Assembly (NCBI RefSeq): GCF_011761355.1
Contig: NZ_JAASRW010000009.1
Span: forward strand, 124,001-188,000
Origin: Paenibacillus lupini
Lineage (GTDB): Bacteria > Bacillota > Bacilli > Paenibacillales > Paenibacillaceae
Direction of reading: 5' to 3'
DNA: 64,000 nucleotides
Positions 11,036 to 27,152 of the stretch are shown piece after piece. The stretch's first letter is position 1. Each line of letters opens with the position of its first letter. The notes beneath the pieces were generated by a model that worked only from the letters and a program-made list of their open reading frames with translations, searched no databases and was not told where the DNA came from. Position numbers and translations under genes: made by a program.

Positions 11036-11077
11036 CACTTTTTATAGATACTTAGATACTCATATAGATAAGTCGAG

Positions 11078-11124
11078 AAGGCAAAGTCCTACCTGCAAGA
11101 GCAGGTAAGGGCTTTGCCTTTTTG
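11078..11124 (+). terminator. Terminator after the TIM-barrel isomerase
   Basis: A long hairpin (AAGGCAAAG..CCTACCTGC pairing with GCAGGTA.GG.CTTTGCCTT, loop AAGA) is followed by a T tract. Confidence 0.85.
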
Positions 11125-11255
11125 TTTTTGGGCTATTTTACATGTAGGTAAATTGCAGTCATTCACGGGCTTTCTTACGTCTACTAAAAATAATTAGTAT
11201 CGAATGAAAAATAATGGGGCACTCAGTTGTATTACAAGTGAAAGGAGGTGCTGAG

Positions 11256-12591: not shown

Positions 12592-12658
12592 AGCGGGAGC
12601 CATATTTCGACTTTTTTCACGTGAAACATAACAGGTATTCCTCAAAATTCGCAAAATG

Positions 12659-12697
12659 AAGCAGGCACCGGTAGTAACCCGGTGTCTGCTTTTTTTA
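12659..12697 (+). terminator. Terminator after the sigma/anti-sigma pair
   Basis: AAGCAGGCACCGG pairs with CCGGTGTCTGCTT (one mismatch), followed by seven Ts. It separates the sigma operon from the amino-sugar-acid operon. Confidence 0.85.
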
Positions 12698-12708
12698 TTT
12701 TCATATAA

Positions 12709-12722
12709 AACATTATAATGTT
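12709..12722. promoter_or_regulatory. Perfect 14-bp palindrome upstream of the -35 box
   Basis: AACATTATAATGTT is an exact palindrome just before the -35 hexamer of the amidohydrolase operon. Together with the palindrome at 12758-12771 it brackets the promoter. The local GntR-family regulator (16776-17495) is the obvious candidate to bind. Confidence 0.5.
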
Positions 12723-12724
12723 TA

Positions 12725-12753
12725 TTGACCTAGGTATGAAATCAGTGTAATTT
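12725..12753 (+). promoter_or_regulatory. Sigma-A-like promoter of the amino-sugar-acid operon
   Basis: TTGACC (12725-12730) and TAATTT (12748-12753) are spaced by 17 bases, 36 bases before the ATG at 12789. Palindromes flank it on both sides. Confidence 0.6.
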
Positions 12754-12757
12754 AACA

Positions 12758-12771
12758 TTATAACGTTATAA
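12758..12771. promoter_or_regulatory. Perfect 14-bp palindrome at the expected transcription start
   Basis: TTATAACGTTATAA is an exact palindrome beginning about five bases after the -10 box. Binding there would block initiation, the usual place for a GntR/HutC-type operator. It shares the (C)ATTATAA core with the upstream palindrome. Confidence 0.55.
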
Positions 12772-12788
12772 CTAACTGAGAATGAAGA

Positions 12789-13901
12789 ATGAAGGTGATT
12801 CGCATAAAGCACGTATGGCGCAACGTTAAACGAACGGATGGCGAATTAATAGATATCGCTGTCGAGAACGGCATAATTATCGAATTAACAGGTGCTGGAC
12901 TCGCAAGCAGCGGGGACGTTGTTATAGATGGCACCGGATTATATGTCTCAAGCGGTTGGATTGATCTGCATGTTCACGCCTTCGCCGAGCTTGACCCGTA
13001 CGGCGATGAAATCGACGAAATCGGCGTCAAGCAAGGGGTAGCGACGATCGTTGATGCGGGTAGCTGCGGCGCGGACCGGATTGGAGACTTGGCGGCAAGC
13101 AGGGAACAAGCGATGACAAGCGTGCTCGCGCTGCTGAACATCTCGAAGATCGGGCTATCCCGAATTGATGAACTATCCGATTTAAGCTGGATCAATCGGG
13201 AACAAGCAATAGAAACCATTCATAGTTATCCAGACTTTATTGTCGGGTTGAAAGCGAGAATGAGCCGGAGCGTCGTTAAGGAAAGCGGAATTGAACCGCT
13301 TCGGAGGGCTAGAGAAATCGCAGATCGGACGGGCTTGCCGATTATGGTTCATATCGGGTCGGCACCGCCTCGAATCGAGGAGATCTTGCCATTGTTGAAG
13401 AAGAATGATGTTGTAACTCATTATTTGAATGGGAAGAGCAACAATCTGTTCGATAAAGCGGGACAACCTTTGCCAGAGCTCAAGGATGCCATTGGCAAAG
13501 GGGTCCGTATGGACGTAGGGCATGGCACCGCCAGCTTCTCGTTTAGGACAGCGGAAGCCGCGAAAGAAAGTGGAGTTAGGTTCGACACCATTAGCACAGA
13601 TATATACAGAGGCAACCGGCTGGGCGGTCCTGTATATAGCTTGGCGCATGTCATGTCTAAGTTTTTGCTGCTGGGCTACCCGTTAGCTGAGGTGATCGAC
13701 GCCGTTACGGTTCGGGCGGCCGATTGGCTGAACAAGCCTGAGCTCGGACGTATCGAGGCTGGTGACAAGGCTCATCTCACCTTTTTCACTGTGAGGCAGG
13801 AAAAAGCGGAGTTCATCGATTCCGAAGGGGAAGCACGCGTGGGAGATCAATATATTCAAGCTAAAGGGGTTTTCGTCAATGGTAGATATGTTGAATGCTA
13901 A
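12789..13901 (+). CDS. Amidohydrolase/deacetylase-family metallohydrolase
   Basis: This 370-residue protein has a full binuclear amidohydrolase metal site. It comprises H61 and H63 in DLHVHAF, the carbamylatable K155 in IVGLKAR, H188 in IMVHIG, H211 in VVTHYL and D271 in ISTDIYRG. This belongs to the amidohydrolase/deacetylase branch that commonly travels with DgaE-like lyases. In this context it would remove the acetyl group from a 2-acetamido-2-deoxy-aldonate, giving the free amino acid sugar for the next enzyme. That role is inference; the family itself is clear. It is the first gene of a five-gene run and overlaps the lyase by 23 bases. Confidence 0.85.
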   Translation: MKVIRIKHVWRNVKRTDGELIDIAVENGIIIELTGAGLASSGDVVIDGTGLYVSSGWIDLHVHAFAELDPYGDEIDEIGVKQGVATIVDAGSCGADRIGDLAASREQAMTSVLALLNISKIGLSRIDELSDLSWINREQAIETIHSYPDFIVGLKARMSRSVVKESGIEPLRRAREIADRTGLPIMVHIGSAPPRIEEILPLLKKNDVVTHYLNGKSNNLFDKAGQPLPELKDAIGKGVRMDVGHGTASFSFRTAEAAKESGVRFDTISTDIYRGNRLGGPVYSLAHVMSKFLLLGYPLAEVIDAVTVRAADWLNKPELGRIEAGDKAHLTFFTVRQEKAEFIDSEGEARVGDQYIQAKGVFVNGRYVEC

Positions 13902-14982
13902 ATATGGATTGAAGCGTGTTATTAACGCAAGCGGACGCATGAGCATCCTTGGCGTATCGGCACCAACCGATACCGTGATGGATGCAATGAAGCGCGGCGG
14001 GCAAAGCTACGTGGAAATTGCAGATCTCGTAGATAAGGCAGGCGATCATATTGCCGGCATCCTCGGATCTGAAGCAGCTGTCGTTGTTAACTCAGCTTCC
14101 AGCGGCATTGCCCTTTGCGTTGCCGGTATCGTGACGCAGGGCAACCGTCGCAGAAGCGAGCGGCTGCACCAGGATCCAATCGAGAAGAATGAAATCCTTA
14201 TTCTAAAAGGTCATAATGTTCAATACGGAGCTCCAGTTGAGACGATGGTATTCTTAGGCGGAGGCAGGCTCGTTGAAGTCGGCTATGCGAACGAAGGTAA
14301 AGCCGAGCATATCGAGGATGCGGTCAGCGATCGTACAGCTGCCATCTTGTATGTGAAATCGCATCATGCGGTACAGAAAAACATGATATCTGTTGAGGAA
14401 GCATGGGCGGTAGCACAGCGCAGCGGCGTGCCGCTTATTGTTGATGCAGCAGCTGAAGAAGATATTCGCAAGTATGTGAAATGCTCTGACCTCGCCATCT
14501 ATAGCGGCTCCAAGGCAATCGAAGGGCCTACCTCAGGGATTGTTGGCGGCAAGCGCAAATATGTAGAGATGGTGAAGGTTCAGCTGCATGGCATTGGCCG
14601 CAGCATGAAGGTCGGTAAGGAAACAACGTTTGGTCTGCTCCAAGCTCTGGACGAGTATCTTGATAAGCCGGATAACAGCGAGCAGGAGAAAGCATCTCTT
14701 CAAACCCTTATGCCGCTGAGCGAGCGGCCGGGTGTTCAAGTGACAATTGTGCAGGATGAAGCAGGACGGGCGATATTCCGCGCTAGAATTCAGATCGATC
14801 CGCTACTAGCAGGCACGACGGCCAAAGAAGTCGTCCATCAGCTGCAAAACGGTGAGATTGCTATCTATACCCGTGATTACGGCGTGAAGCAAGGCTACTT
14901 CGACATTGATCCGCGTCCACTTCTAGGTGACGATATAGACGTAATCGCAGCAACCATCCGCAATTTAACAGGAGGCAACTAA
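13879..14982 (+). CDS. DgaE-like PLP-dependent ammonia-lyase (SelA-like fold)
   Basis: A 367-residue fold-type I PLP enzyme. VDAAAEED places D189 for the pyridine nitrogen, and IYSGSKAIEGPTSG gives K212 as the Schiff-base lysine. NSASSGIALCVAGI near 71-84 is the phosphate-binding region. The family includes DgaE, D-glucosaminate-6-phosphate ammonia-lyase of Salmonella, which forms 2-keto-3-deoxygluconate-6-phosphate. Here a kinase is encoded downstream, so the lyase could act on the free or the phosphorylated amino acid sugar. AAAGGGG lies nine bases before the ATG inside the previous gene, so translation is coupled. Confidence 0.85.
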   Translation: MVDMLNAKYGLKRVINASGRMSILGVSAPTDTVMDAMKRGGQSYVEIADLVDKAGDHIAGILGSEAAVVVNSASSGIALCVAGIVTQGNRRRSERLHQDPIEKNEILILKGHNVQYGAPVETMVFLGGGRLVEVGYANEGKAEHIEDAVSDRTAAILYVKSHHAVQKNMISVEEAWAVAQRSGVPLIVDAAAEEDIRKYVKCSDLAIYSGSKAIEGPTSGIVGGKRKYVEMVKVQLHGIGRSMKVGKETTFGLLQALDEYLDKPDNSEQEKASLQTLMPLSERPGVQVTIVQDEAGRAIFRARIQIDPLLAGTTAKEVVHQLQNGEIAIYTRDYGVKQGYFDIDPRPLLGDDIDVIAATIRNLTGGN

Positions 14983-14983
14983 C

Positions 14984-15739
14984 ATGTCCAATATGAATAA
15001 AAGATTGTATAAGAGCCGCGCAGCACTAAATGTACTTGCAAACAGCGTGGACAATGCCAAAGAAGTGTTCGACGCTGCAGAAGGGCATGTACTCGTTGGT
15101 GTTCTATCCAAAGACTATCCGACTGTTGAAGCTGCTGTTGAAGCGATGAAACGTTACGGAGAAGCGATCGAAGAGGCTGTCTCCATTGGGCTTGGAGCAG
15201 GAGACAATCGGCAAGCGGCAGTTGTAGCTGAGATTGCGAAATATTATCCGGGAACGCATATCAACCAGGTATTCCCGGCAGTTGGTGCAACCCGTGCCAA
15301 TTTGAACGGCCAGGAGAGCTGGATTAATAGCCTTGTCTCGCCGACAGGTCAAGTCGGCTACGTAAATATCTCGACTGGTCCCTACAGCGCTGCACAACCG
15401 GAGCAAGCTATCGTGCCGGTCAAGACCGCTATCGCACTTGTCCGGGACATGGGCGGCAATGCACTCAAGTATTTCCCGATGAACGGGCTTAGCCGGGAAG
15501 ACGAGCTTCGTGCAGTAGCTAAAGCATGCGGTGAGGAAGGGTTTGCGCTTGAGCCTACGGGTGGCATTGACATGGACAACTTTGAGCCAATCTTGCGCAT
15601 CGCGCTGGAAGCAGGAGTACCGCAGGTCATTCCCCATGTCTACTCCTCAATTATCGACAAGGCTACGGGCAAGACTAACGTTGCAGACGTGCAAGCCCTG
15701 CTCGCTGTAATGAAAAGGCTGGTCGATGCCCATGGTTGA
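14984..15739 (+). CDS. DgaF-like 2-keto-3-deoxy-6-phosphogluconate aldolase
   Basis: A 251-residue TIM-barrel class I aldolase of the KDGP aldolase (DgaF) type. The Schiff-base lysine is K162 in GGNALKYFPMNG, and the substrate-binding EPTGGIDMDNF starts at E190. It cleaves 2-keto-3-deoxy-6-phosphogluconate to pyruvate and D-glyceraldehyde-3-phosphate. AGGAGG precedes the ATG, which follows the lyase stop by one base. The gene overlaps the kinase by 14 bases. Its pairing with the DgaE-like lyase is the strongest evidence that this operon degrades a 2-amino-2-deoxy-aldonate. Confidence 0.88.
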   Translation: MSNMNKRLYKSRAALNVLANSVDNAKEVFDAAEGHVLVGVLSKDYPTVEAAVEAMKRYGEAIEEAVSIGLGAGDNRQAAVVAEIAKYYPGTHINQVFPAVGATRANLNGQESWINSLVSPTGQVGYVNISTGPYSAAQPEQAIVPVKTAIALVRDMGGNALKYFPMNGLSREDELRAVAKACGEEGFALEPTGGIDMDNFEPILRIALEAGVPQVIPHVYSSIIDKATGKTNVADVQALLAVMKRLVDAHG

Positions 15740-16766
15740 TCGTCCTAACTGTGATCGCCTGACCGTTGCCGTATTTGGTGAAGTCATGATGCGTTTGCAG
15801 ACGCCGGGTTACGAGCTGTTAACCCAGGCAAGCAGCTTAAATTACTCTTTCTCCGGCACAGGCGTTAACGTCGGTTCCGCACTCGCCCGCTTTGGGCACC
15901 GTGCGGAGCTTGTTACGGCTCTGCCGGACAATCCGCTTGGAGACGCGGCTGCAGCTTTCGTGCACAAGCTTGGTTTGTCGACGGACCTCGTTGCCAGATC
16001 CGGGCAATACATCGGCATGTATTTCCTGGAGAACGGCTTTGGTGCACGCCCCGGCCGGGTCACTTATTCGGGCCGCCAGGCAAGCAGCTTTAATACGGCG
16101 TCTGCCGAGACGTACGATTACGCGGCAATTGCTAAGCGCGTTGATCTTGCACATTTTTGTGGCATCACGCTTGCGATGAACGACCTCGTGCGCACCCATC
16201 TGCTCTCTTTAGCACGCACGGTCAAGGCGAAAGGCGGCCGAATCATATTTGATTGCAACTATCGCCCGGCTCATTGGGGAAAAGACGGGTATGCGTTAGC
16301 CCGTCCCTTTTACGAAGAAATGCTCTCGCTGTCGGATATCGTGATGATGAATGAGCAGGACGCGATTCGTATCCTCGGCATGCCCACGGAGCAGACAGGC
16401 CGTCAGGAGCAGTTATTCGAGCTCATCCCACAAGTCGCGAGCCGTTACGGAATCTCCGTCATTGCTGGGACGCATCGTACGATTAACGGAAATAATACAC
16501 ATACCCTTCAAGGCTATTTGTACAAAAACGAATTCTTCTTCGCCGATCCGGTTACATTCGCTGTTCATGACAGAATCGGCGCGGGCGATGCGTTCGCGAG
16601 CGGGATTATTCACGGCGAACTTAGTGGATTTGAACCGGATTATACGGTCCGCTTCGCAGTTGCAGCTGCTATGCTCGCTCATACGATTACTGGAGATACG
16701 CCGATGTCAAGCGAGCGGGACATCATTCGAGCCATGACGGAAGCTGCCCTCGATGTAGAAAGGTAG
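15726..16766 (+). CDS. PfkB-family sugar kinase, probable 2-keto-3-deoxygluconate kinase
   Basis: A 346-residue ribokinase/PfkB protein. The N-terminal SFSGTGVNVGSALARFG binds sugar, FDCNYRPAHW (about 175-184) is typical of 2-keto-3-deoxygluconate kinases, and DRIGAGDAFASG gives catalytic D288. In the operon it would supply the 6-phosphate, either on 2-keto-3-deoxygluconate after the lyase or on glucosaminate before it. The first ordering avoids phosphorylating an amino acid sugar; sequence alone does not decide. In-frame ATGs at 15726 and 15732 both lie in the overlap with the aldolase gene. Confidence 0.82.
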   Translation: MPMVDRPNCDRLTVAVFGEVMMRLQTPGYELLTQASSLNYSFSGTGVNVGSALARFGHRAELVTALPDNPLGDAAAAFVHKLGLSTDLVARSGQYIGMYFLENGFGARPGRVTYSGRQASSFNTASAETYDYAAIAKRVDLAHFCGITLAMNDLVRTHLLSLARTVKAKGGRIIFDCNYRPAHWGKDGYALARPFYEEMLSLSDIVMMNEQDAIRILGMPTEQTGRQEQLFELIPQVASRYGISVIAGTHRTINGNNTHTLQGYLYKNEFFFADPVTFAVHDRIGAGDAFASGIIHGELSGFEPDYTVRFAVAAAMLAHTITGDTPMSSERDIIRAMTEAALDVER

Positions 16767-16775
16767 GCCATTCCT

Positions 16776-17495
16776 GTGTCTATGCGACGTACCACCGACA
16801 AACCGCTTTACTTACAGGTCATGAGCGTACTGAAAGAACATATTCTTCACGGGAAGTATCCGGTCGGCACGCTGCTTCCTTCCGAGCCGCAGTTAGAAGC
16901 TGAATTTAACGTCAGCAAAATTACGGTGCGCGCCGCGATTAAGGAGCTGGCGCAGGACGGATATGTAGAGAAAGGAAGCGGTAAAGGCACGAAGGTCATC
17001 CGCAATACTTCCATCTCGAAGCTGTCCAAGCTGAAGCGGTTTACCGAAGTGCTTGTAGAAGAAGGATACCGTATTCAGAAGGAGCTGTTGTCCGCAGAAG
17101 TCGTGCCTACAGAGGAAGACTCCATCCCGTGGCAATTGTTCGGCGATACTTGTGTGAAGATCGAGCGACTCTATCGGCTGAACGGCAAGCCCTACATCTA
17201 TTTCAATCATTACTTAACGAGCAAGGTGTCTGGTATCGAAACTGCCGGCTTGAACGACCAGTCGTTATATGGTTTGCTCGAAGAAAGCCAAGTCACACTC
17301 GAGAAGTACCGTGACGAATTTTCCGTTTGCGGAAGCGCGCCGGAACGCGTAATGGAGGCGCTAGGTCTCGAAGTGGGGAGACTGCTGCTAAAGCGTTCGC
17401 GCTACTCCTTCGCTGGGAATGGCGAGCCGGTTGAATACAGTGAAGGGTTCTACGATACGGACCAGCATCATTACATTATCAATTACGATGTGTGA
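16776..17495 (+). CDS. GntR-family transcriptional regulator (UTRA domain)
   Basis: A 239-residue HutC-type regulator. Residues 5-70 form the winged helix (LYLQVMSVLKEHILHGKYP, then LPSEPQLEAEFNVSKITVRA), and residues 95-235 form a UTRA ligand-binding domain. Such domains bind sugar phosphates or amino sugars and release operators on binding. GTG 16776 is favoured by AAAGGTAGG eight bases upstream. As last gene of the five-gene operon it probably represses its own transcription at the palindromes 12709-12722 and 12758-12771. The effector may be a pathway intermediate. Confidence 0.88.
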   Translation: MSMRRTTDKPLYLQVMSVLKEHILHGKYPVGTLLPSEPQLEAEFNVSKITVRAAIKELAQDGYVEKGSGKGTKVIRNTSISKLSKLKRFTEVLVEEGYRIQKELLSAEVVPTEEDSIPWQLFGDTCVKIERLYRLNGKPYIYFNHYLTSKVSGIETAGLNDQSLYGLLEESQVTLEKYRDEFSVCGSAPERVMEALGLEVGRLLLKRSRYSFAGNGEPVEYSEGFYDTDQHHYIINYDV

Positions 17496-17498
17496 GAC

Positions 17499-17528
17499 AA
17501 CTCCCTCTCTCCCGAGAGGGAGTTTATT
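17499..17528 (+). terminator. Hairpin ending the five-gene operon
   Basis: A perfect 11-bp stem (AACTCCCTCTC/GAGAGGGAGTT) with tetraloop TCCC is followed by a short weak T stretch (TTATTGT). It probably terminates or attenuates transcription before the sensor kinase gene. Confidence 0.7.
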
Positions 17529-17597
17529 GTAGCTTAATTGCTCAGAATAAATCGTATAAGGAATGAATTTTCCTAAAATGGAGGTCGAATCGACGGC

Positions 17598-19361
17598 ATG
17601 AACGGCTGGTTTAGAAGATCGCTGAAGCGCAAAATCACGTTCCTGCTCCTCATTTCGATTTTGCTGCCGCTATTATCATTAGGCTTGTTTTCCTACTTTA
17701 TTGCATCCAACATAACGGAAGAAAAAGTGAAAGCATCAGGTATGAGCATCATGCGACAGATGGGCTCAAACCTTGAGTTTTTCATGCGCGACATCGAGAA
17801 CAGCTCTTTATTCCTCATCGGTAACAAAGATGTTCAGATGTATTTGAACGTTTCCGAGAAAGAAGCAAACCTGCGACAGAACCGTATGACTGAATTTCTA
17901 TCGAACCTGATGTATTCCAAGAACTATGTATCGGATATTACGATTTATCCCGCCAGCCAGGCGCTGCCTGTGTCCAATACGACGATCTTTAAGGTCAGCG
18001 TGCCAGATATTACAATCTCTGAACCGGATTATTACGTCGATCACCCTTACTGGTGGACATCGCTTTATCCCATTCACACGGCGGCGGGCAAGAAGAACAT
18101 CCTCTCTCTTATCCGTCCGATCCGTAACGTGAATACGTTCCAATATCTAGGAAAACTTGTCATTAGTCTCGACGAAAGCATGGTGGCGAAGACGCTTAAG
18201 AAATCAGGTATCGGCGATAATGGCTTTATGCTGCTCATCGATGGGAATGGAAATGTCCTGTCGGGATCCTTGTCTCCACTTCCGAGTACAATCGCAGACA
18301 TCTTGCCAGAGATGCCTTCCGTAGACGGAACGGCAGGCTCTATCAACTATGGTACCGGAGGGGATAAAAAGACGGTGCTATACCGGAAGCTTCCTGAAGC
18401 CGGCTGGACACTGATTGGTGTCATCCCTTTCGCAGACTACAAGTCGCAGAACCGCTACGTGCTCACGCTTACCGCCGCGGCAGTTGGCGTATCGCTACTG
18501 GCCATCGTTGTGCTTGTTGTGTTCTTTGTCCAACGGCTCACCAGGCCGCTTCGTATGCTGACGAATTTCCTGAACAACACCGACCCGGAAGAGCCCATGC
18601 GTTTGTATCCGGTCGAATCCATGGATGAGGTTGGCCAGCTTGTACGAAGCTACAACAAGCTAAGTGGTAAAATCGAGGCGCTCACTGACCAAGTAAAGCT
18701 AACCGAAGCCATGAAGACGGAAGCGGATATGCAGGCTCTGCAGGCGCAGATCAACCCCCACTTCCTATACAATACACTCTCATCCATCCATTGGATGGCG
18801 CTCATGAATCAGGATCATCAAACAGCCGATATGGTCGGTAACTTAAGTGATTTCCTTCGCTTTAGCCTTAACAAAGGAGCACAATTTACATCCGTTGAGC
18901 AAGAGATCGCTCATGTGCGCCATTACGCGAACATTCAAGCGATCCGCTATCCGGATCAGTTCGACATCGTATTCGCGATTGATTCCCAGTTGTATCGCAA
19001 GAAGATTCTGAAGCTGCTGCTGCAACCCCTAATAGAGAACGCGCTCGTCCATGGCTTGCACAAGAAACCAGGGAAAGGGGCGATCAGCGTACACGCGAGT
19101 CTGCAGGGATCTCTCATGACATTCACTGTAGAAGATTCTGGCGCGGGCATCGCTGCGGACAAGCTGGCGCACATCCGTACCCGGCTTAATGAACCGGAAG
19201 AGGTACGCGGTGAGTCCAAAGATCATTACGGACTTCGGAATGTAAATTTGAGGCTGCTGCTTCATTACGGCGCTGATGCGGGACTGAAAATTGAAAGCAC
19301 AGAGGGCGTTGGAACGATCGTTTCGTTCTCGCTGCCGGTAACGGAGGAATCAATAGCATGA
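17598..19361 (+). CDS. YesM-like sensor histidine kinase
   Basis: A 587-residue membrane kinase. A transmembrane helix near 12-36 (KITFLLLISILLPLLSLGLF) and a second near 292-315 bracket a large extracellular sensor domain. A HAMP region follows (RLTRPLRMLTNFL). The His_kinase motif LQAQINPHFLYNTLSSI has H388 as phospho-acceptor. The C-terminus is a HATPase domain with N-box LLQPLIENALVHGL and G-box DHYGLRNVNLRL. This is the YesM/LytS-type layout that senses extracellular sugars in Paenibacillaceae. Its stop overlaps the YesN-like gene start (ATGA). It likely controls the adjacent importer. Confidence 0.92.
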   Translation: MNGWFRRSLKRKITFLLLISILLPLLSLGLFSYFIASNITEEKVKASGMSIMRQMGSNLEFFMRDIENSSLFLIGNKDVQMYLNVSEKEANLRQNRMTEFLSNLMYSKNYVSDITIYPASQALPVSNTTIFKVSVPDITISEPDYYVDHPYWWTSLYPIHTAAGKKNILSLIRPIRNVNTFQYLGKLVISLDESMVAKTLKKSGIGDNGFMLLIDGNGNVLSGSLSPLPSTIADILPEMPSVDGTAGSINYGTGGDKKTVLYRKLPEAGWTLIGVIPFADYKSQNRYVLTLTAAAVGVSLLAIVVLVVFFVQRLTRPLRMLTNFLNNTDPEEPMRLYPVESMDEVGQLVRSYNKLSGKIEALTDQVKLTEAMKTEADMQALQAQINPHFLYNTLSSIHWMALMNQDHQTADMVGNLSDFLRFSLNKGAQFTSVEQEIAHVRHYANIQAIRYPDQFDIVFAIDSQLYRKKILKLLLQPLIENALVHGLHKKPGKGAISVHASLQGSLMTFTVEDSGAGIAADKLAHIRTRLNEPEEVRGESKDHYGLRNVNLRLLLHYGADAGLKIESTEGVGTIVSFSLPVTEESIA

Positions 19362-20908
19362 AAATAATGATTGTAGACGACGAGGTCATCATACGAAACG
19401 GATTAAGCACCGTTATCAATTGGGAGGAACTCGGGTTCAAGCTTCTCCCGCCTGCCGCTTCCGCAGAGGAAGCATTGGCCAGGTTTCCAGATGAACAGCC
19501 TAACATTGTCCTGTCTGACATTCAGATGACGGGTATGAATGGTATCAATCTGGCAGCCGAAATCAAGATGAAATGGCCGGATACAGAAATTATTATTTTG
19601 ACCGGCTTCGATATGTTCTCTTATGCCCAGCAGGCGATCCGCGAAGGCGTGAGCGATTATTTGCTGAAGTCGAGCCGCCCCGAAGAAATCATCAGGGCGG
19701 CGATGAAGGCAAAGCAGAGGCTGCAGGTACGATGGGAGTCCATTAAGAAGGAAAGCCGCGGCCGTTCGGCGTTCCGTGATCGCCTGCTTGAGAGTCTGAC
19801 CCGGGAAGGGACACTGAGTGATCAATCCGTCGAATCGGCCAGCGAGCTGCTGCCGCATCTTGGGCTTGAGGAGCCGCCCTTGTCTCTGCAGGTATTGCTA
19901 TTAGCAGCGAGTGGTTGGGGAGGGCGGCCGGATGATTCTTCGCTTGCACATTTTGCCGTCGCCAATATCGTACAGGAGATATTGCCCTGCGAGACACTCC
20001 TGCATAAGGATCGCGTTCTCGTTGTCATGAATAACAAGGCTGGTGAGACTGTCGATAAGCTGGAGAAAGAGCTTGGAAGAGTCAGCCGGAAACTCAAGTG
20101 CAAGCTCTACGTGGCTGTTGGTTCAACAGTGGGATCAATCGAGGAGCTGAGGCGTTCTTTCAAAGAAGCGGAGCATGCGTTCACCTACCGTTCCATTTCG
20201 AGCACGAACGAAGACACGTTTATCCGCTACGAGCTCGTGAAGGATCGGACAGGCGGTAAGAGGGTCTGTTCGGAAGAGGAGGAAGCGAGGTTTATCGCTA
20301 TTGCTAAATCCGGAAGCATTATCGATCTGCGGCATTGGGTCGACGAAACGATAGCTGCGCAGCTGTCCGATCCCGAAGTGACGCCAGACTCTCTGCAAGC
20401 TTACTTGAACTCCATCGTTCTGTCGGGACACCGCTTTCTGGAGAGGGTCACTGCAACGGTTGGTGAACCGCCGCCTGTAGCAGAACCGCTGCGCCCAGAT
20501 GTGCTTAATCAGTCGGAAAATTCGTATGTAGTGCTGTTCCGTTTGCTGAACTCGATCATGGACCTGTACAGAGAAACGATGTCGGGCGATCGAGTATCTT
20601 ATATCAAAAGAGCAATTACATACATTAGAGACCATTTGGACAGAAACTTAACGCTGCAGCAAGTAGCGAAGCATGTGCATTTGAATCCGAACCATTTCAG
20701 CGAAGTATTCAAGCGGGAGACCGGGTTTACCTATATCGAATTTGTGACCAAGGAACGGATCTCCCGCGCGAAGGAACTGCTGGACAGTACTCCAATCAAG
20801 ATCAGTGATATCGCCGGGCGGGTCGGTTACGAGGACGTGAAGTATTTCGGTCAATTATTTAAGAAGGCGACCGGCCAGACACCGTCCGAATATCGCAATA
20901 AGACCTGA
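19358..20908 (+). CDS. YesN-like response regulator with AraC DNA-binding domain
   Basis: A 516-residue regulator. The N-terminal receiver domain has D7/D8, phospho-acceptor D54 in VLSDIQMTGMNG, T82 in ILTGFD and a conserved K. The central 150-400 region is the variable linker typical of YesN proteins. The final about 100 residues form two AraC helix-turn-helices (LTLQQVAKHVHLNPNHFSEV and ISDIAGRVGYEDVKYFGQLF). It is translationally coupled to the kinase by an ATGA overlap. It would activate the importer promoter between 20909 and 21033. Confidence 0.92.
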   Translation: MKIMIVDDEVIIRNGLSTVINWEELGFKLLPPAASAEEALARFPDEQPNIVLSDIQMTGMNGINLAAEIKMKWPDTEIIILTGFDMFSYAQQAIREGVSDYLLKSSRPEEIIRAAMKAKQRLQVRWESIKKESRGRSAFRDRLLESLTREGTLSDQSVESASELLPHLGLEEPPLSLQVLLLAASGWGGRPDDSSLAHFAVANIVQEILPCETLLHKDRVLVVMNNKAGETVDKLEKELGRVSRKLKCKLYVAVGSTVGSIEELRRSFKEAEHAFTYRSISSTNEDTFIRYELVKDRTGGKRVCSEEEEARFIAIAKSGSIIDLRHWVDETIAAQLSDPEVTPDSLQAYLNSIVLSGHRFLERVTATVGEPPPVAEPLRPDVLNQSENSYVVLFRLLNSIMDLYRETMSGDRVSYIKRAITYIRDHLDRNLTLQQVAKHVHLNPNHFSEVFKRETGFTYIEFVTKERISRAKELLDSTPIKISDIAGRVGYEDVKYFGQLFKKATGQTPSEYRNKT

Positions 20909-20964
20909 TCGATGTCCCCCCATGACCTGAAGGGTGTCCCCTGCCTCTTCGCTACACCCAAGTC

Positions 20965-20979
20965 TATACTGAAAGTATA
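20965..20979. promoter_or_regulatory. Inverted repeat in the importer promoter region
   Basis: TATACT-GAA-AGTATA is a 6+3+6 inverted repeat about 55 bases before the binding-protein start. A TATACT hexamer (20976-20981) could be a -10 box without a good -35, as expected of an activator-dependent promoter. Confidence 0.4.
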
Positions 20980-21033
20980 CTAACGCAGCACATTGCTAGA
21001 CGATTATGAACTTCAATCAGGGGGGATTTTCCG

Positions 21034-22347
21034 ATGAATAAGAAGCTTTCCATTGTGGCGACATCGCTCGTCACCACATCAATCCTACTGGCTGCCTGCG
21101 GCAGCAACGGCGATACTAATTCCAACAGCAATGGCAAAGAGAAAGTAATGCTTTCGCTTTGGCACAACTATACAGGCGATGATCAACGTGCTCAAACGAT
21201 GCGTGCAATCATCGAGCAATATCAGAAGGATCACCCGGAAGTCGAGCTTGATGTTCAGGCGATTCCACCAGACGGCTATCGCACTCGCTTGAAAACGGTT
21301 GCAGCTGCTAACGAAATGCCGGACCTGTTCGTTATGTGGCCAGGTGTCATGACGAAGGAATTCCAATCAGGCAACCTGCTCCAACCGATTAACGAGCTAC
21401 TGGACAGCAAGAAGGAATGGAAAGATGGATTCCTGCCAGGCTCCTTTGACGGCTTCTCGATTGGCGAGGACATCTTCAGTGCACCAATTGCATTGTCCCC
21501 AACTTCCATTCTGTACTACAACAAATCCATTCTCGAAGAGAACGGTCTGCAGCCTCCAAAAACTTGGGATGAGCTCATGAATGCTGTTACCGTGCTGAAA
21601 GAAAAGAAAATCACGCCAATCGCGCTTGGCAACAAAGCGGCATGGCTCGCACAATCTAGTATTTTCAGCTCATTGGCTGACCGCGTGACGGGTACGGAAT
21701 GGTTCCTGAAAGCAGCGGCGCAAGACGGCGCGAAATTTACGGATCCAGAGTTCGTAGAGGCGCTCACTTACCTTCAAGATCTGGGTAAAGCTGGCGCGTT
21801 CCAAGACGGCTTCAACTCCATCGATAATACGCAGATGGAACAATATTTCGCTCAAGGTAAAGCAGCTATGATGATCGACGGCGGCTGGGCATTGACGAAC
21901 CTGGCGGCTTCGGCCTCGAAGGAAACGCTTGAGCAAATGGGCGCGACTGTACTGCCTTCCATCCCTGGCGGCAAAGGGGATCCTAATACGATCTCTGGTG
22001 TGGTTGGAACGGGTATCGGCATGAGCTCGAAAGTAAAAGATGCGAAGAAGCAGGCTGCATATGACCTCATGTATGCGATGGCTGGTCCGGATGCTCAAAA
22101 ACGCGTGCTGGAAAGCAATCAGCTCGTCAGCTACAAGGTTGATCTTGATAAAACGAAGGTTACACCAATCTTCGCCGAAGTGTATGATCTCGTGAACAGC
22201 GTTACCACTACTCCTGTCTATGATGGTGTCATGTCTTCCGCAGTAGCCGATGAACTGAACAACGGTCTGCAGGATCTGCTTATGGGCGGCAAGCCGGAAG
22301 AGATCGCGAAGAAGGTCCAGGCTGCACAAGAAAAAGAAGCAAAGTAA
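21034..22347 (+). CDS. ABC transporter sugar-binding lipoprotein
   Basis: A 437-residue family 1 extracellular solute-binding protein. The N-terminal signal ends in the lipobox LLAACGSN with C22 as lipidated cysteine. A Ser/Asn/Gly linker follows, then SLWHNYTGDDQRAQTMRAII and the YYNKSILEENGLQPPKTWDE hallmark of oligosaccharide-binding proteins. It captures an oligosaccharide at the outer face of the membrane for the two permeases downstream. GGGGGGATTTTCCG precedes the ATG. No ATPase is encoded nearby; as usual in this group, a shared MsmX-type ATPase would energise it. Confidence 0.93.
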   Translation: MNKKLSIVATSLVTTSILLAACGSNGDTNSNSNGKEKVMLSLWHNYTGDDQRAQTMRAIIEQYQKDHPEVELDVQAIPPDGYRTRLKTVAAANEMPDLFVMWPGVMTKEFQSGNLLQPINELLDSKKEWKDGFLPGSFDGFSIGEDIFSAPIALSPTSILYYNKSILEENGLQPPKTWDELMNAVTVLKEKKITPIALGNKAAWLAQSSIFSSLADRVTGTEWFLKAAAQDGAKFTDPEFVEALTYLQDLGKAGAFQDGFNSIDNTQMEQYFAQGKAAMMIDGGWALTNLAASASKETLEQMGATVLPSIPGGKGDPNTISGVVGTGIGMSSKVKDAKKQAAYDLMYAMAGPDAQKRVLESNQLVSYKVDLDKTKVTPIFAEVYDLVNSVTTTPVYDGVMSSAVADELNNGLQDLLMGGKPEEIAKKVQAAQEKEAK

Positions 22348-22371
22348 TTACCACACTACAATATACGGGGT

Positions 22372-22404
22372 CCGTTCTTCCTCACGCTGTACGGGGGCGA
22401 ACGG
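22372..22404 (+). other. Hairpin between binding-protein and permease genes
   Basis: CCGTTC pairs with GAACGG across a GC-rich loop, with no T run after it. Such intercistronic stems often stabilise the upstream message so that the binding protein is made in excess of the permeases; that role is inference. Confidence 0.4.
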
Positions 22405-22442
22405 ATTACCGTTCTACTAGCAATTGAAATGGAGGGGGCGTT

Positions 22443-23318
22443 ATGACGTCTACTGTACGTACTAGAAGATTTATCGTTATTGGTCTTCTCCCTGCGCTGC
22501 TGTTATTCTCTTTCTTTGTCATCATCCCGATTATCTGGTCTGCTTATTACGGTTTCTTCGATTGGAAGGGAATCGGCACTGCGAAATTCATCGGCTTCGA
22601 TAACTATTCAGAGATTATTCATGACGAAGTGTTCTGGCGTTCATTAAAGAACAACATGCTTGTTGTCGCCGCATCCGTATTTGGCCAAGTGCCGATTGCA
22701 CTCGTGCTTGCGCTTTTGCTGCTCAAAAACTCTTGGATTCATAAATTCATCCGTACCGCTGTTTTCATGCCGATGGTATTATCGTCGGTTGTTGTCGGCA
22801 TTATCTGGGGTTATATTTATCACCCGGAAATCGGTATTCTTAACTTCCTGCTAGACAGCCTTGGACTTGAATCCTGGAAGCGCCAATGGCTTGGCGATCC
22901 GGCCGTCTCGATGTATTCGCTTATGGTTCCAATCATCTGGAACTACATTGGTCCGTATTTGATTATGTTCATAGCCGCTCTTCACAATATTCCGAGCGAG
23001 ATGGACGACGCAGCAAAAATCGATGGAGCTAAAGGCTCCCGCAAATTGTTCTCTTTAACCTTGCCATTAATATGGGATACGATCAAGGTCGCGGTAGTTC
23101 TGTGTATTTCCGGCAGTCTCAAGTCATTTGACTTGATCTATATCATGACCGGAGGCGGACCTGCCCATTCGACTGAACTGCTCGCATCTTATATGTACAA
23201 TAATACATTTGCAATTTACCGTTTCGGTTACGGCAGCGCGGTATCAACCGCGATTATTATCATCAGTCTGTTCTTGATCGCCGGCAGCCAATATCTTATG
23301 AAATCGAAAAATCGTTAA
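22443..23318 (+). CDS. Sugar ABC transporter permease (MalF/LacF-type)
   Basis: A 291-residue inner-membrane protein with six hydrophobic segments. It has the permease EAA-like loop MDDAAKIDGAKGSRKLFSL before the last helices, where the ATPase docks. The N-terminal FFDWKGIGTAKFIGFDNYSE is typical of the MalF/LacF half of CUT1 importers. GGAGGGGG precedes the ATG. It forms a heterodimer with the next gene product and lies 13 bases upstream of it. Confidence 0.93.
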   Translation: MTSTVRTRRFIVIGLLPALLLFSFFVIIPIIWSAYYGFFDWKGIGTAKFIGFDNYSEIIHDEVFWRSLKNNMLVVAASVFGQVPIALVLALLLLKNSWIHKFIRTAVFMPMVLSSVVVGIIWGYIYHPEIGILNFLLDSLGLESWKRQWLGDPAVSMYSLMVPIIWNYIGPYLIMFIAALHNIPSEMDDAAKIDGAKGSRKLFSLTLPLIWDTIKVAVVLCISGSLKSFDLIYIMTGGGPAHSTELLASYMYNNTFAIYRFGYGSAVSTAIIIISLFLIAGSQYLMKSKNR

Positions 23319-23330
23319 GGGGGACCTCGC

Positions 23331-24158
23331 ATGCTGCAACGCCGTTTTTCAAGCGGACTCGCGAATGGTCTGATGACCCTTTACGCGCTTGTCACGCTTT
23401 ATCCGCTGTTCTGGTTGTTCACTAGTGCATTCAAGTCGAACGAAGAGTTTTATTCCCGTCCGTTCCAGCTGCCAACAACCTGGCACTGGGACAGCTTCTC
23501 CCGCGCGTGGAAAGTATCCGATATGGGAACGAGTATGTTCAACTCCATTATCGTAACTGGAGCTTCGCTTGTGCTTACCCTAATAATCGGCGCGCTGGCC
23601 GCGTACATTTTGTCCCGGTTCCAGTTTCGCCTCAAACTAGCTGTCATGGGCTTATTCCTGCTAGGCATGCTCATTCCGGTTCACAGCACGCTTGTACCGC
23701 TGTTTATCGTTATGAATAAGATTGATCTACTCAACACGTACGGTGCACTTATATTCCCGTATGTCGCATTCGAACTGCCAATTGCAATCTTTATCATCCA
23801 GGCGTATATGAACACGTTTCCGAAAGAAATCGAAGAAGCGGCTCATCTCGACGGCATGGGATACTGGGGTACTTTCCTGAAAATCATGCTTCCGCTGTCC
23901 GCTCCTGCATTATCAACGGTGGGCATTCTGGCGCTCCTGCGGTTCTGGAATGACTTCTCATTCGCGCTCGTATTTATCAGTAAACCAGAGCTAAAAACTT
24001 TGCCGCTTAGCTTATCACAGTTTGCAACAGGATATATGACCGATTACGAACTGACGATGGCTGCACTAACCATCGCGGTAATACCAACCATTATCCTCTA
24101 CTTGATTTTCCAACGTTCGATTATGCAGGGTATGGTCGCTGGCGCTGTAAAAGGTTAA
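23331..24158 (+). CDS. Carbohydrate ABC transporter permease (MalG/LacG-type)
   Basis: A 275-residue six-helix permease of the CUT1 MalG type. The cytoplasmic coupling loop is KEIEEAAHLDGMGYWGTFLK, and the C-terminus ends FQRSIMQGMVAGAVKG, as in this half of the importer. GGGGGA lies eight bases before the ATG. It partners the preceding permease and the shared ATPase. The GH20 gene follows after 66 bases. Confidence 0.93.
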   Translation: MLQRRFSSGLANGLMTLYALVTLYPLFWLFTSAFKSNEEFYSRPFQLPTTWHWDSFSRAWKVSDMGTSMFNSIIVTGASLVLTLIIGALAAYILSRFQFRLKLAVMGLFLLGMLIPVHSTLVPLFIVMNKIDLLNTYGALIFPYVAFELPIAIFIIQAYMNTFPKEIEEAAHLDGMGYWGTFLKIMLPLSAPALSTVGILALLRFWNDFSFALVFISKPELKTLPLSLSQFATGYMTDYELTMAALTIAVIPTIILYLIFQRSIMQGMVAGAVKG

Positions 24159-24224
24159 AGCCTAACTAGAGTCCGTGCCTACGTGGTATGGGCTCTAGAT
24201 TCATATTCGGGGAGGAGTATTCCT

Positions 24225-26171
24225 ATGAAATTGTGTTTCGAAGGCGAACTGGAGGAGTTGCTGCCTGGCATTCAGGCTATCGTTCCGGAACTCGGCATAA
24301 CGCTTGAGCTTGCGCGTACACTCGATGAGGATGAAGGATTAACGGTAGTCGTCGGCAGCTCTTCAGACGGCCTAGAAGTTAAATACGAACCAGACGCAGG
24401 GAAAGCTTATATCCGTTACGAGCGAAGACATCAATTTTATCGAGGACTTGGCCTGATTGTGCAGCACGCACGTAAGGGTGAACCACTGACGCGTTTCGAG
24501 AAGCAGCAATTCGATACAATTGGACCGATGTTCGATTTATCCCGTAACGGGGTACTGACCGTGGACGCGTTCAAGACGATGCTGAACCGAATGGCGCTAA
24601 TGGGTCTTAATACGGTCATGCTGTACATGGAAGATACTTATGCGATTGAGGGCGAGCCCTACTTTGGCTATATGCGCGGGCGGTACTCCGCAGAGGAATT
24701 GAAAGCCATTGACGACTACGCTGACATGCTTGGTATCGAAGCTTTCCCAAGCATTCAGACGCTTGCACATCTAGAGGAATTCCTGAAGTGGGAGCCTGTG
24801 AAAGGATACAAGGATACGAAAGGCGCGCTTCTCGTCGGCGACAATCAAGTAGACCTGCTGGTCGAGCGCATGATCCATTCTGCTTCGGCGCCGTTCCGCA
24901 GCCGCAAAATTCATATCGGTATGGACGAGGCAGAAGAGCTTGGACGCGGCAAATATTTGGACCGCTTCGGCTTTGACGACCGGATCGACATCATGACCGG
25001 GCATCTGAACAAAGTGCTCGATGTTACACGCCGCCATGGGTTGAAGGCTATGATGTGGAGCGATATGTTCTTAAAACTTGCAGTCGGCAATACGGGCACG
25101 GAAAGCGATTATTACAATACGAATACGAAAATTCCCGAAGAGATGGCACGCCGGATTCCGAAAGACGTGGATATGGTGTACTGGGATTATGTCCATATGG
25201 AGCAGGAGCACTATGAGGGTGTTATTGCTAATCACCGCCCGCTTGGCTGCAACCTTGTGTTTGCTGGGGCGGTGTGGATCTTCAATACATTTGGTGTTAA
25301 TTACGGCATGTCGCTGAACGCGTCTAATGTCGCGCTTCAAACCTGTAAACGCGAAGGCATACGCGAGGCGTACGCGACGATGTGGGGCGATGATGGCAAC
25401 GAAGGCAATCCATTCGCGGCGCTGCTTGGTCTGCAGCTCTACGCGGAGCATGCCTATTCAGAGGAACAACCAGAATGGAGTATCGTTGCTGAACGAGCAA
25501 AATTCTGTACCGGCATCGACGCAGATGCTTACTTGCTACTGAAGGACTTGGACGAAGTGCCCGGATCTGAACCTGACAACCGGAAACAAAGCAATCCTTC
25601 GAAGTTTCTGCTTTACCAAGACGCCTTGCTTGGTCTGTTTGACTGTCAGATCGACGGCTTACCGTTAAATGCGCATTATGCGGCGCTTGAAGAGAAATTG
25701 AGCGATGCGAGGGTCAAAGACGCTGCGCTGGATTGGATCTTTGAAGTTCCGCAGAAGCTATGCGCAGTATTGAAGCACAAGAGTGAATTAGGCTTACTGC
25801 TGAAACACGCTTACGATACAGCGGATATAGCTGCGCTGCGGCATTTGGCGACTGAGGTAATTCCTGTTATCGCAGCAGCGGTTGACGAACTCCGCGTCGC
25901 TCACCGCACGCAATGGCTTAAGATGTTCAAGCCATTCGGTTGGGAAGTGCTCGATATTCGTTACGGCGGCGTCATCAATAGGCTCAATACCGCATCAGTC
26001 CGTCTGCTTGCCTTCGCGAACAATGAAATTGACCGGATCGAAGAATTGGAGCAGGAGCGGCTGCCATTCAGCACCGTCAATCGTTTCAACGGCAGAGGAG
26101 TTGGCTGGAGCAGTCATTATTACCGGATGGCAAGCCCGAATGTCTTCTTCCACGTCATGAATCCTTTCTAA
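24225..26171 (+). CDS. GH20 beta-N-acetylhexosaminidase, cytoplasmic
   Basis: A 648-residue protein from ATG 24225, with GGGGAGGAG upstream; an in-frame GTG at 24183 lacks a site. The family 20 catalytic motif HIGMDEAEELG carries the Asp-Glu pair D234/E235. In GH20 the Asp orients the 2-acetamido group as internal nucleophile and the Glu is the acid. The barrel start FDLSRNGVLTVDAFKTMLNR and MLYMEDTY support the fold. There is no signal peptide, so it trims oligosaccharides after uptake by the adjacent importer. It removes terminal beta-linked GlcNAc or GalNAc. The long C-terminal helical region (about 430-648) is not catalytic. Confidence 0.88.
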   Translation: MKLCFEGELEELLPGIQAIVPELGITLELARTLDEDEGLTVVVGSSSDGLEVKYEPDAGKAYIRYERRHQFYRGLGLIVQHARKGEPLTRFEKQQFDTIGPMFDLSRNGVLTVDAFKTMLNRMALMGLNTVMLYMEDTYAIEGEPYFGYMRGRYSAEELKAIDDYADMLGIEAFPSIQTLAHLEEFLKWEPVKGYKDTKGALLVGDNQVDLLVERMIHSASAPFRSRKIHIGMDEAEELGRGKYLDRFGFDDRIDIMTGHLNKVLDVTRRHGLKAMMWSDMFLKLAVGNTGTESDYYNTNTKIPEEMARRIPKDVDMVYWDYVHMEQEHYEGVIANHRPLGCNLVFAGAVWIFNTFGVNYGMSLNASNVALQTCKREGIREAYATMWGDDGNEGNPFAALLGLQLYAEHAYSEEQPEWSIVAERAKFCTGIDADAYLLLKDLDEVPGSEPDNRKQSNPSKFLLYQDALLGLFDCQIDGLPLNAHYAALEEKLSDARVKDAALDWIFEVPQKLCAVLKHKSELGLLLKHAYDTADIAALRHLATEVIPVIAAAVDELRVAHRTQWLKMFKPFGWEVLDIRYGGVINRLNTASVRLLAFANNEIDRIEELEQERLPFSTVNRFNGRGVGWSSHYYRMASPNVFFHVMNPF

Positions 26172-26186
26172 TTCAAGTTATTTCAT

Positions 26187-26240
26187 AACCTGCAAACGGA
26201 TGTCCTGTTGATGACAGGCAATCGTTTGCGGGTTATTTTT
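26187..26240 (+). terminator. Terminator after GH20
   Basis: AACCTGCAAACG pairs with CGTTTGCGGGTT, with an inner TGTCCTGTTGATGACAGGCA hairpin, followed by ATTTTT. It closes the import and hydrolase operon. Confidence 0.85.
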
Positions 26241-26402
26241 CGTGAGGGCCTATTCTCCCGCATTACCAATCCTTTTGACCTAAATAGACCTATTCAATTA
26301 GGTACTTTAGCCCCGCATATAAACTTGGAAAATTAATCTATAATGAAGGAAACATTTTTCGATATGAATCGACATATTTTCTCAGAAAAGGTGAGTTGAT
26401 CT

Positions 26403-27119: not shown

Positions 27120-27152
27120 GGTCATGCCGGGAATGGGAAGAGAAGGACGCAC

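Follow-up and report, generated by a model that had tools for sequence, protein, structure and literature searches.

The window, i.e. the whole 64,000-nt stretch of Paenibacillus lupini DNA that was analysed, contains a core of five genes encoding an amidohydrolase, a DgaE-family lyase, a DgaF-type aldolase, a PfkB kinase and a GntR regulator. It is followed by genes for a YesM/YesN two-component system, a CUT1 importer and a GH20C hexosaminidase (Table 1). All genes named in a first-pass annotation of this DNA are present where it had placed them, on the plus strand, and most of the names were confirmed by family models. The same annotation had described one tight five-gene operon plus a downstream block. 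The genes agree with this description, but a terminator-like hairpin separates GntR from YesM and the locus may therefore comprise two transcription units; hairpin-type matches between these two genes are no more frequent than in shuffled sequence. An ABC ATPase gene was absent from the ORFs listed within the cluster, as was a PTS gene from the cluster, and none of the scanned window proteins (10205 to 28451) was identified as GH130 or GH38.

Table 1. Positions of genes and sequence features at the locus, numbered from the first letter of the window.
Feature	Position	Strand	Basis
Weaker second operator-like palindrome AAACATTATAATGTTT, immediately 5' of a TTGACC -35-like hexamer	12699..12724	.	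PWM 16.6
Main operator assigned to GntR, core TTATAACGTTATAA at 12758-12771	12752..12777	.	PWM 27.4
EF_0837-type amidohydrolase, predicted N-acetyl-2-amino-2-deoxy-aldonate deacetylase	12789..13901	+	TIGR03583 above cut-off
DgaE-family PLP lyase, predicted 2-amino-2-deoxy-aldonate ammonia lyase yielding KDG	13879..14982	+	TIGR01437 above cut-off, NF047797 below cut-off
DgaF-type KDPG aldolase	14984..15739	+	NF047796 and PF07071 above cut-off
PfkB sugar kinase, predicted KDG kinase	15726..16766	+	PF00294 above cut-off; KDG/KDGal kinase models below cut-off
GntR/UTRA regulator, predicted operator-binding repressor	16776..17495	+	PF00392, PF07702; operator occurrence tracks gene
Terminator-like hairpin 3' of the five-gene unit	17505..17522	+	Consensus match only
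YesM-type sensor kinase	17598..19361	+	dCache, His_kinase
YesN-type response regulator	19358..20908	+	REC and AraC HTH
CUT1 solute-binding lipoprotein, predicted oligosaccharide binder	21034..22347	+	PF01547 (SBP_bac_1)
First CUT1 permease	22443..23318	+	Family models
Second CUT1 permease	23331..24158	+	Family models
GH20C exo-beta-N-acetylhexosaminidase, predicted cytoplasmic	24183..26171	+	PF18088 and PF00728; PDB 2epk, 5a69 homologues

The amidohydrolase scored 490 bits against the EF_0837 deacetylase family TIGR03583 (cut-off 432). In alignments it has HxH, Lys, His, His and Asp positions in common with PDB entries 2ics and 8wzy; with 2ics, its HVH, the lysine of GLKARMS, MVHIGSAPP, THxxNGK and STDIY are aligned. 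We take these HVH, Lys, His, His and Asp positions to be metal ligands. The lyase had been called DgaE-like, which is correct for the wider DgaE family TIGR01437 (526 bits; cut-off 385) but not for the DgaE equivalog NF047797, the D-glucosaminate-6-phosphate ammonia lyase (403 bits; cut-off 600). The DgaF-like aldolase was upheld by model NF047796 (385 bits; cut-off 300), and the PfkB and GntR assignments were borne out by PF00294 and by PF00392 plus PF07702, respectively. NCBIfam matches of the kinase all fell below cut-off, and the best of them include several KDG/KDGal kinases; the KdgK model NF052444 gave 72 bits (cut-off 400).

Domain matches also agreed with the annotated YesM/YesN pair and CUT1 importer (Table 1). 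PDB matches of the binding protein were 4g68, 3vxb and the chitin-oligosaccharide binders NagB1 and NagB2, the similarity to NagB1 and NagB2 being weak (118 and 114 bits). Residues R83, W204, W285 and D397 align with the NagB2 ligand residues R96, W217, W296 and D408; these are the identical ones of 14 listed NagB2 ligand positions, and the other 10 differ or fall in a gap. According to the report on Paenibacillus FPU-7 (PMC8233162), NagB1 and NagB2, four of whose ligand residues are thus retained here, belong to the same SBP family, and nagB1 adjoins a two-component system, as does the binding protein gene in the window. GH20C was recognised by its C-terminal domain PF18088 (225 bits) and a GH20 catalytic domain (31 bits), both above cut-off, and inspection of its N-terminus revealed no signal peptide, as the first-pass annotation had proposed.

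Genes at the corresponding loci of relatives were called with a codon-usage caller. TIGR03583 and TIGR01437 exceeded their cut-offs in the identical 74 of 148 family genomes, and the five core clusters are represented in 154, 154, 153, 152 and 140 of 155 loci. The association is therefore not due to chance. Locus L092, which had no DgaE gene call, was left out before distinct loci were counted. A gene for a GntP gluconate permease lies 3' of the core on the same strand in 22 of 139 distinct loci, in 21 of them directly behind a core gene. Such loci are found, among others, in Priestia, Metabacillus, Bacillus and Scopulibacillus, and a plasmid of Priestia megaterium has the same gene order with the annotation 'gluconate:H+ symporter'. 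This linkage points to an aldonic acid as substrate. At the level of whole genomes, co-occurrence of the operon with AA10 genes (present in 33 of the 74 genomes with the operon and in 23 of the 74 without) was not significant (p=0.13) and was dropped as support; co-occurrence with GH20C reached only p=0.034.

A palindromic operator 5' of the core operon, whose occurrence tracks the GntR gene, provides the strongest of the new evidence. It was found in 129 of 131 loci with a GntR gene versus two of eight loci without, and 128 of the 139 distinct loci have a site scoring at least 18 upstream of the amidohydrolase start as annotated. GntR is predicted to bind the palindrome and to act as a repressor. 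The 14-bp operator core has exactly three perfect copies in the 6.67-Mb P. lupini genome, located upstream of this operon, of a gene for a CBP21-like chitin LPMO and of a gene for a secreted GH18 chitinase. Across 51 congeners the exact core (18 sites) was hardly more common than a reversed control (14); one exact-core site (G152:C7:50211) was left out of gene assignment.

The first-pass annotation had suggested a search for AA10 LPMO and chitinase genes in the same genome. Two AA10 genes are present, as is the GH18 chitinase gene mentioned above. The LPMO encoded downstream of the operator is closest to CBP21 and has a CBM5/12 domain, while the second AA10 gene has no operator. The LPMO site recurs in congeners G054 and G085, and the chitinase site in G054, G075, G085, G152 and G154. 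The chitinase site of P. lupini itself scores 22.2, a value also reached by stray sites in genomes without the operon; its position and its conservation are what lend it weight. Of 40 LPMO loci taken from 28 relatives with the operon, two, both belonging to the window's genus, have an operator in front, compared with none of 20 loci from operon-free genomes; this sample covers part of the LPMO genes of other genomes and excludes G060, G130, G138 and G146. Control of LPMO genes by GntR outside the window's genus was rejected (none of 36 other-genus LPMO loci in operon genomes).

In the window, no operator site was found before YesM, the binding protein gene or GH20C; the importer-GH20C block, which has the hairpin on its 5' side, is without an operator of its own. 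Among relatives, GH20C accompanies the core at 10 of the 139 distinct loci, in two layouts; in L098 and L112 it is truncated by the locus edge and was counted from its N-terminal part. In P. kobensis GH20C and the core are spread over two contigs. An operator stands directly 5' of unlinked GH20C genes in G118, G120 and the congener G159 (the site in G159 was found by the operator pattern itself), and GH20C thus adjoins the core or sits under the operator in several genera. This does not extend to unlinked GH20C genes in general: ten were fetched from operon genomes, eight of which (L225-L232) had no site, while the two with a site (L207, L208) had been fetched because of it. Most GH20C genes of operon genomes are unlinked, five of 40 being within 11 kb of the core; by chance, about 0.15 of 40 would be expected there on a rough calculation (40 x 22 kb / 6 Mb), and the five are not all independent. 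A specialised clade of operon-linked GH20C did not emerge: the linked genes did not form one clade in a tree with 11 linked, three operator-linked and eight unlinked rows.

From these data we infer that the locus probably catabolises C1-oxidised chitin fragments. The pathway logic put forward in the first-pass annotation (import, trimming by GH20, deacetylation, deamination to 2-keto-3-deoxygluconate (KDG), phosphorylation and aldol cleavage) fits the enzyme families, and it gains support from GntP behind the core, from the operator shared with LPMO and GH18 genes and from the linkage of GH20C in several genera. The predicted route would be as follows: (i) extracellular AA10 LPMO and chitinases would release chito-oligosaccharides with N-acetylglucosaminate (GlcNAc1A) ends; (ii) the CUT1 importer, with an ATPase presumably encoded elsewhere, would bind the oxidised ends and bring these oligosaccharides in; (iii) cytoplasmic GH20C would take off GlcNAc units to yield free GlcNAc1A; (iv) the EF_0837-type amidohydrolase would strip acetate from GlcNAc1A; (v) the DgaE-type lyase would convert the unphosphorylated amino-aldonate, presumably of the gluco- configuration, to ammonia and KDG; (vi) the PfkB enzyme would phosphorylate KDG; and (vii) the DgaF aldolase would produce pyruvate and glyceraldehyde-3-phosphate. 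GntR at the palindrome would repress the five genes, and within the genus its repression would extend to one LPMO gene and one GH18 chitinase gene.

A precedent in marine chitin degraders, to which the first-pass annotation had pointed, does exist, although the families of its deacetylase and deaminase are different ones (PMC9537276). In the ong cluster of Pseudoalteromonas prydzensis (PMC9537276; PMC12017989), the order of reactions is the same (GH20 trimming, GlcNAc1A deacetylation, deamination yielding KDG, KDG kinase, KDPG), and a link to AA10 LPMO and a dedicated regulator are shared with the locus described here. The ong cluster has a D-aminoacylase-like OngB, OngC annotated as D-amino acid deaminase, RidA, a TonB receptor, an SSS symporter, a MurR/RpiR regulator and a periplasmic GH20, whereas our locus combines an amidohydrolase of the EF_0837 type and a SelA-related lyase of the DgaE type with a CUT1 importer, GntR and signal-less GH20C. 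No OngB or D-aminoacylase entry was found among the eight PDB sequences matching the amidohydrolase or among its NCBIfam matches, the distinction being drawn from these matches and not from the OngB sequence itself. Likewise, no RidA-like gene is present among the 11 genes of 12789-26171, where the lyase is of the SelA/DgaE type. Membership in the ong pathway was thus rejected on the OngB and OngC types, and the different deacetylase and deaminase families argue for a parallel route. The EF_0837-EF_0839 module of enterococci and Klebsiella is similar in that the amidohydrolase gene adjoins that of a DgaE-family lyase, with a KDGP aldolase annotated next in Klebsiella and a sugar kinase nearby in E. 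faecalis. Unlike the present locus, it is flanked by SFCGS/DUF4310-4312 proteins and PRD regulators, and GH20, GntP and CUT1 are absent among its listed features.

The core could alternatively be a general sink for N-acetylated 2-amino-aldonates which derive mainly from mannose-containing glycans of the N-glycan or fungal mannoprotein kind whose HexNAc end is oxidised, chitin being one case among several. This is suggested by the families encoded near the core: among 139 loci, GH130 occurs in 33 and GH38 in 14, both more often than GH20C, and GH125 in 6; many cores of relatives carry GH130 or GH38 without GH20C. Moreover, GH130-importer operons of G007, G086 and G120 lie downstream of the same operator, an AraC-type regulator with operator lies beside GH130 in G071, G091, G108 and G140, and a paper on the use of N-glycans by pneumococci names both GH20C and GH38 (PMC5215778). 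By contrast, the window proteins scanned included neither GH130 nor GH38, and within the window's genus the operator is found at the genes of a chitinase and a chitin-type LPMO. Further, a reaction by which these bacteria would oxidise the reducing ends of N-glycans is not known to us, and we regard a predominantly mannose-glycan source as rather unlikely. Still somewhat less probable is that the core uses aldonates while importer and GH20C serve reduced chito-oligosaccharides, as neighbours without a common substrate. The hairpin between the units, the missing operators before YesM, the binding protein gene and GH20C, the partial NagB2 site (4 of 14) and the mostly unlinked state of GH20C would agree with such an arrangement, but the proximity of GH20C to the core, seen at 10 of 139 loci and in two layouts, the excess of GH20C over chance within 11 kb and the operators directly 5' of GH20C in G118, G120 and G159 argue against it.

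Degradation of N-acetyl-D-amino acids or similar compounds by amidohydrolase and lyase, instead of sugar acids, is brought to mind by the structural relatives EF0837 (2ics) and Atu3266 (2ogj), which reportedly remove the acetyl group from N-acetyl-D-amino acids and acetyl-(R)-mandelate. Since C2 of glucosaminate also has the R configuration, stereochemistry does not separate the two readings; a KDG-type kinase and a KDPG aldolase in the operon and an adjacent GntP do not fit amino acids, which makes this substrate class highly improbable. Least probable is a PTS-fed D-glucosaminate-6-phosphate system as in Salmonella, whose D-glucosaminate (dga) operon combines a DgaE-type lyase with a DgaF-type aldolase, as seen here, but relies on PTS uptake and a phosphorylated substrate. 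Such a system was rejected, as the lyase remained below the DgaE equivalog cut-off, the cluster is without a PTS gene and a kinase gene lies close to that of the lyase; uptake here is of the ABC type, and N-deacetylase and sugar kinase are part of the operon. In L. paracasei, PTS genes adjoin DgaE and no such kinase is among the genes listed, the list being incomplete.

With respect to the fate of oxidised ends produced by chitin LPMOs, the literature found describes Proteobacteria only, and PMC9537276 reports the complete ong pathway from Gammaproteobacteria plus one betaproteobacterium. It is conceivable, though doubtful, that Gram-positive soil bacteria independently built a full pathway for oxidised chitin by combining an EF_0837 deacetylase with a DgaE-type lyase, that a GntR responsive to a downstream metabolite controls both an LPMO and the use of its products, and that a second, unrecognised class of amino-aldonate-ended glycans feeds soil bacteria; the latter is suggested by the joining of core and switch to GH130 and GH38 in sister genera. 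If true, a convergent route would extend the pathway to Paenibacillaceae and Bacillaceae, which are major soil chitin degraders, and families now named just 'amidohydrolase/deacetylase' and 'DgaE family' would be given roles. The switch, which would also cover an LPMO gene in one genus, would offer a defined regulator and operator testable at once. Finally, two further hits of the operator matrix lay in a Bartonella plasmid (29.2) and next to the Enterococcus module (20.0).

The open reading frames claimed by the first-pass annotation for the forward-strand locus at 12789-26171 were found as stated. Family models identified the core genes as those of an amidohydrolase (EF_0837 type), a lyase (DgaE family), an aldolase (DgaF), a kinase (PfkB) and a regulator (GntR/UTRA). 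On their 3' side come genes for YesM, YesN, a CUT1 importer (binding protein and two permeases) and GH20C; a terminator-like hairpin lies between the GntR and YesM genes. The lyase passed the cut-off of the broad DgaE family and missed that of the D-glucosaminate-6-phosphate equivalog model (403 of 600 bits). The kinase resembled KDG kinases, under every cut-off. These scores fit, without proving it, a substrate that would enter unphosphorylated and be phosphorylated only after the lyase step.

Amidohydrolase and lyase exceeded their cut-offs in the identical 74 of 148 genomes drawn from the window's family. For comparison, 74 further operons were fetched from this draw, plus one stretch that is the second contig of P. 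kobensis; a genome collection supplied 80 named loci (best 80 of 257 relatives). With 15 duplicates discarded, along with one locus in which no lyase was called, the final set comprised 139 distinct loci including the window. Gene order of the core was stable, while its neighbours differed. In 22 of the 139 loci, Bacillaceae included, the core has a co-oriented gene for a GntP gluconate permease (PF02447; the one protein scanned scored 489 bits) on its 3' side, directly after the GntR gene in 18 and directly after the kinase gene in three. The same six genes are annotated consecutively on a Priestia megaterium plasmid, and in P. aestuarii (L082) one core is flanked by both importer and GntP. 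The best argument for a free aldonic acid as substrate is that a gluconate-type permease serves these enzymes. Family content, gene order and GntP together support the proposed chemistry of the locus well. What the importer contributes, which aldonate is used and all enzyme activities are inferred. The best PDB matches of the binding protein were 4g68 (177 bits), 3vxb (121) and NagB1/NagB2 (118/114); four of 14 NagB2 ligand positions, as given in an excerpt of PMC8233162, are kept, which would allow a chito-oligosaccharide ligand but does not demonstrate it.

Upstream of the amidohydrolase gene a palindrome with the consensus AAACATTATAACGTTATAATGTTT was found. Of 132 upstream regions, up to 123 contained its 10-mers and 115 its best dyad, versus 3 for the best dyad of shuffled sequence. 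A matrix built from 68 distinct sites gave two matches scoring at least 14, and none at 16, in 1.65 Mb of shuffled loci. Sites of at least 18 occurred in 129 of 131 loci with a GntR gene (the other two scored 17.2 and 14.2) versus two of eight without (Fisher p=8.5e-8, a rough guide only as related loci are non-independent); in P. kobensis, one of these two, the GntR gene sits on another contig. This distribution ties the palindrome to the GntR regulator of the core as its putative operator. The Cohnella laeviribosi locus L127 carries the core, a strong operator (34.5) and GntP, but the stretch retrieved, from a 15.9-kb contig, lacks a GntR gene. Locus L224 of G065, with a shortened amidohydrolase gene (partial match), a strong operator (35.3) and a kinase fragment nearby, looks like a decaying operon copy.

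In the window's own genome a 20-bp consensus retrieved two sites, and the operator core TTATAAYRTTATAA had exactly three perfect matches; five one-mismatch sites all scored below 12.

Perfect operator-core matches in the window's genome (6.67 Mb, 19 contigs) and features flanking the locus; C3 and C5 are contigs of that genome, other positions refer to the window
Feature	Position	Context	Score
Operator core match 1	12758-12771	5' of operon	
Operator core match 2	C3:772684	about 186 bp 5' of AA10 LPMO gene	30.8
Operator core match 3	C5:331102	about 207 bp 5' of GH18 chitinase gene	22.2
Sigma-70-like factor, then protein with DUF5666-like repeats	11214-12591	immediately 5' of operon	
Terminator-like hairpin	12658-12692	parts the preceding pair from operon	
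Polysaccharide deacetylase domain protein (PF01522)	27153-28451	immediately 3' of locus	

AA10 LPMO and GH18 chitinase genes, for which a search of the same genome had been suggested, are both present. The operator-linked LPMO is nearest to CBP21 and carries CBM5/12; the chitinase has 1206 residues, a signal-like N-terminus and both fibronectin and SLH domains, and none of the listed ORFs falls between its site and its gene. A second LPMO gene, on the window's contig, had no operator site by matrix scan. The chitinase site recurred before close homologues in G054, G075, G085, G152 and G154; two of these genomes, G054 and G085, also share the LPMO site. Both sites lie within conserved blocks of the alignments. 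An operator common to a CBP21-like LPMO and a chitinase makes the predicted assignment to chitin well supported in the window's genus. Among LPMO loci the operator was found in two of 40 from 28 operon genomes, both in this genus, and in none of 20 from operon-free genomes. AA10 genes were carried by 33 of 74 genomes with the operon versus 23 of 74 without (p=0.13), so across the family as a whole having the operon and having an LPMO are not linked; for GH20C the figures were 30 and 17 of 74 (p=0.034).

GH20C lay near the core in 10 of the 139 loci, placed 3' of YesMN and the importer or else divergently upstream, and additionally, spread over two contigs, in P. kobensis. Five of 40 GH20C genes of operon genomes were within 11 kb of the lyase gene, and the core-linked ones formed no separate clade. 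The operator preceded unlinked GH20C genes in G118, G120 and the congener G159, and YesM in G086, where the corresponding G120 arrangement has GH20C before YesM. GH130 was near the core in 33 loci, GH38 in 14, GH125 in six and GH3 in six; the nearest PDB relatives of the one GH130 compared were beta-1,2-mannoside phosphorylases. Apart from the core, the operator preceded GH130-importer operons in G007 (L199), G086 (L204) and G120 (L206), which suggests either glycans that contain mannose and end in an amino-aldonate or some other role of GH130. It was also found at an AraC-type regulator (about 775 residues) adjoining GH130 in G108 (L200), G140 (L201), G091 (L202), G071 (L203) and, with GH130 placed by coordinates, G092 (L210), and between this regulator and a GntR gene in G127. 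The core probably has a further, mannose-bearing source in sister genera.

Stray sites occurred as well. Nine operator-like sites fetched from operon-free genomes scored 15-24, a site in G143 18.8, and one near a small proline-rich protein in G135 (L196, position 3998), a congener with no DgaE match, 36.5; Bartonella plasmid DNA gave a match at 29.2. In 51 congeners the exact core occurred 18 times versus 14 for the reversed control, and six of the 18 sites had nothing downstream matching the reference set. The operator argument rests on position and conservation, not on count.

The marine precedent mentioned in the first-pass annotation stood for reaction order, which in the ong pathway, according to an excerpt of PMC9537276, is that proposed here, but not for enzyme families: OngB is D-aminoacylase-like (excerpt of PMC12017989), whereas the window's amidohydrolase matches EF0837 (2ics) and 8wzy, filed as dihydroorotase, and its lyase is SelA-related by family models. 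Listings of open-licence papers on N-acetylglucosaminate and related terms contained no Gram-positive route. No PDB match of the amidohydrolase was an entry named OngB. The aldolase family TIGR03581 is named EF_0839/AHA_3917, where AHA presumably denotes Aeromonas hydrophila. If so, the module might account for the OngB and OngC steps that were not found in two Aeromonas species, for which an excerpt of PMC11653859 describes OngB and OngC matches as distant or absent. In a Klebsiella plasmid (L302), Enterococcus faecalis (L304) and Bartonella (L305), the amidohydrolase-DgaE pair lies by PRD regulators and SFCGS/DUF4310-4312 proteins, perhaps a dedicated uptake system; the E. faecalis locus also includes genes for a MupG-family protein and a sugar kinase.
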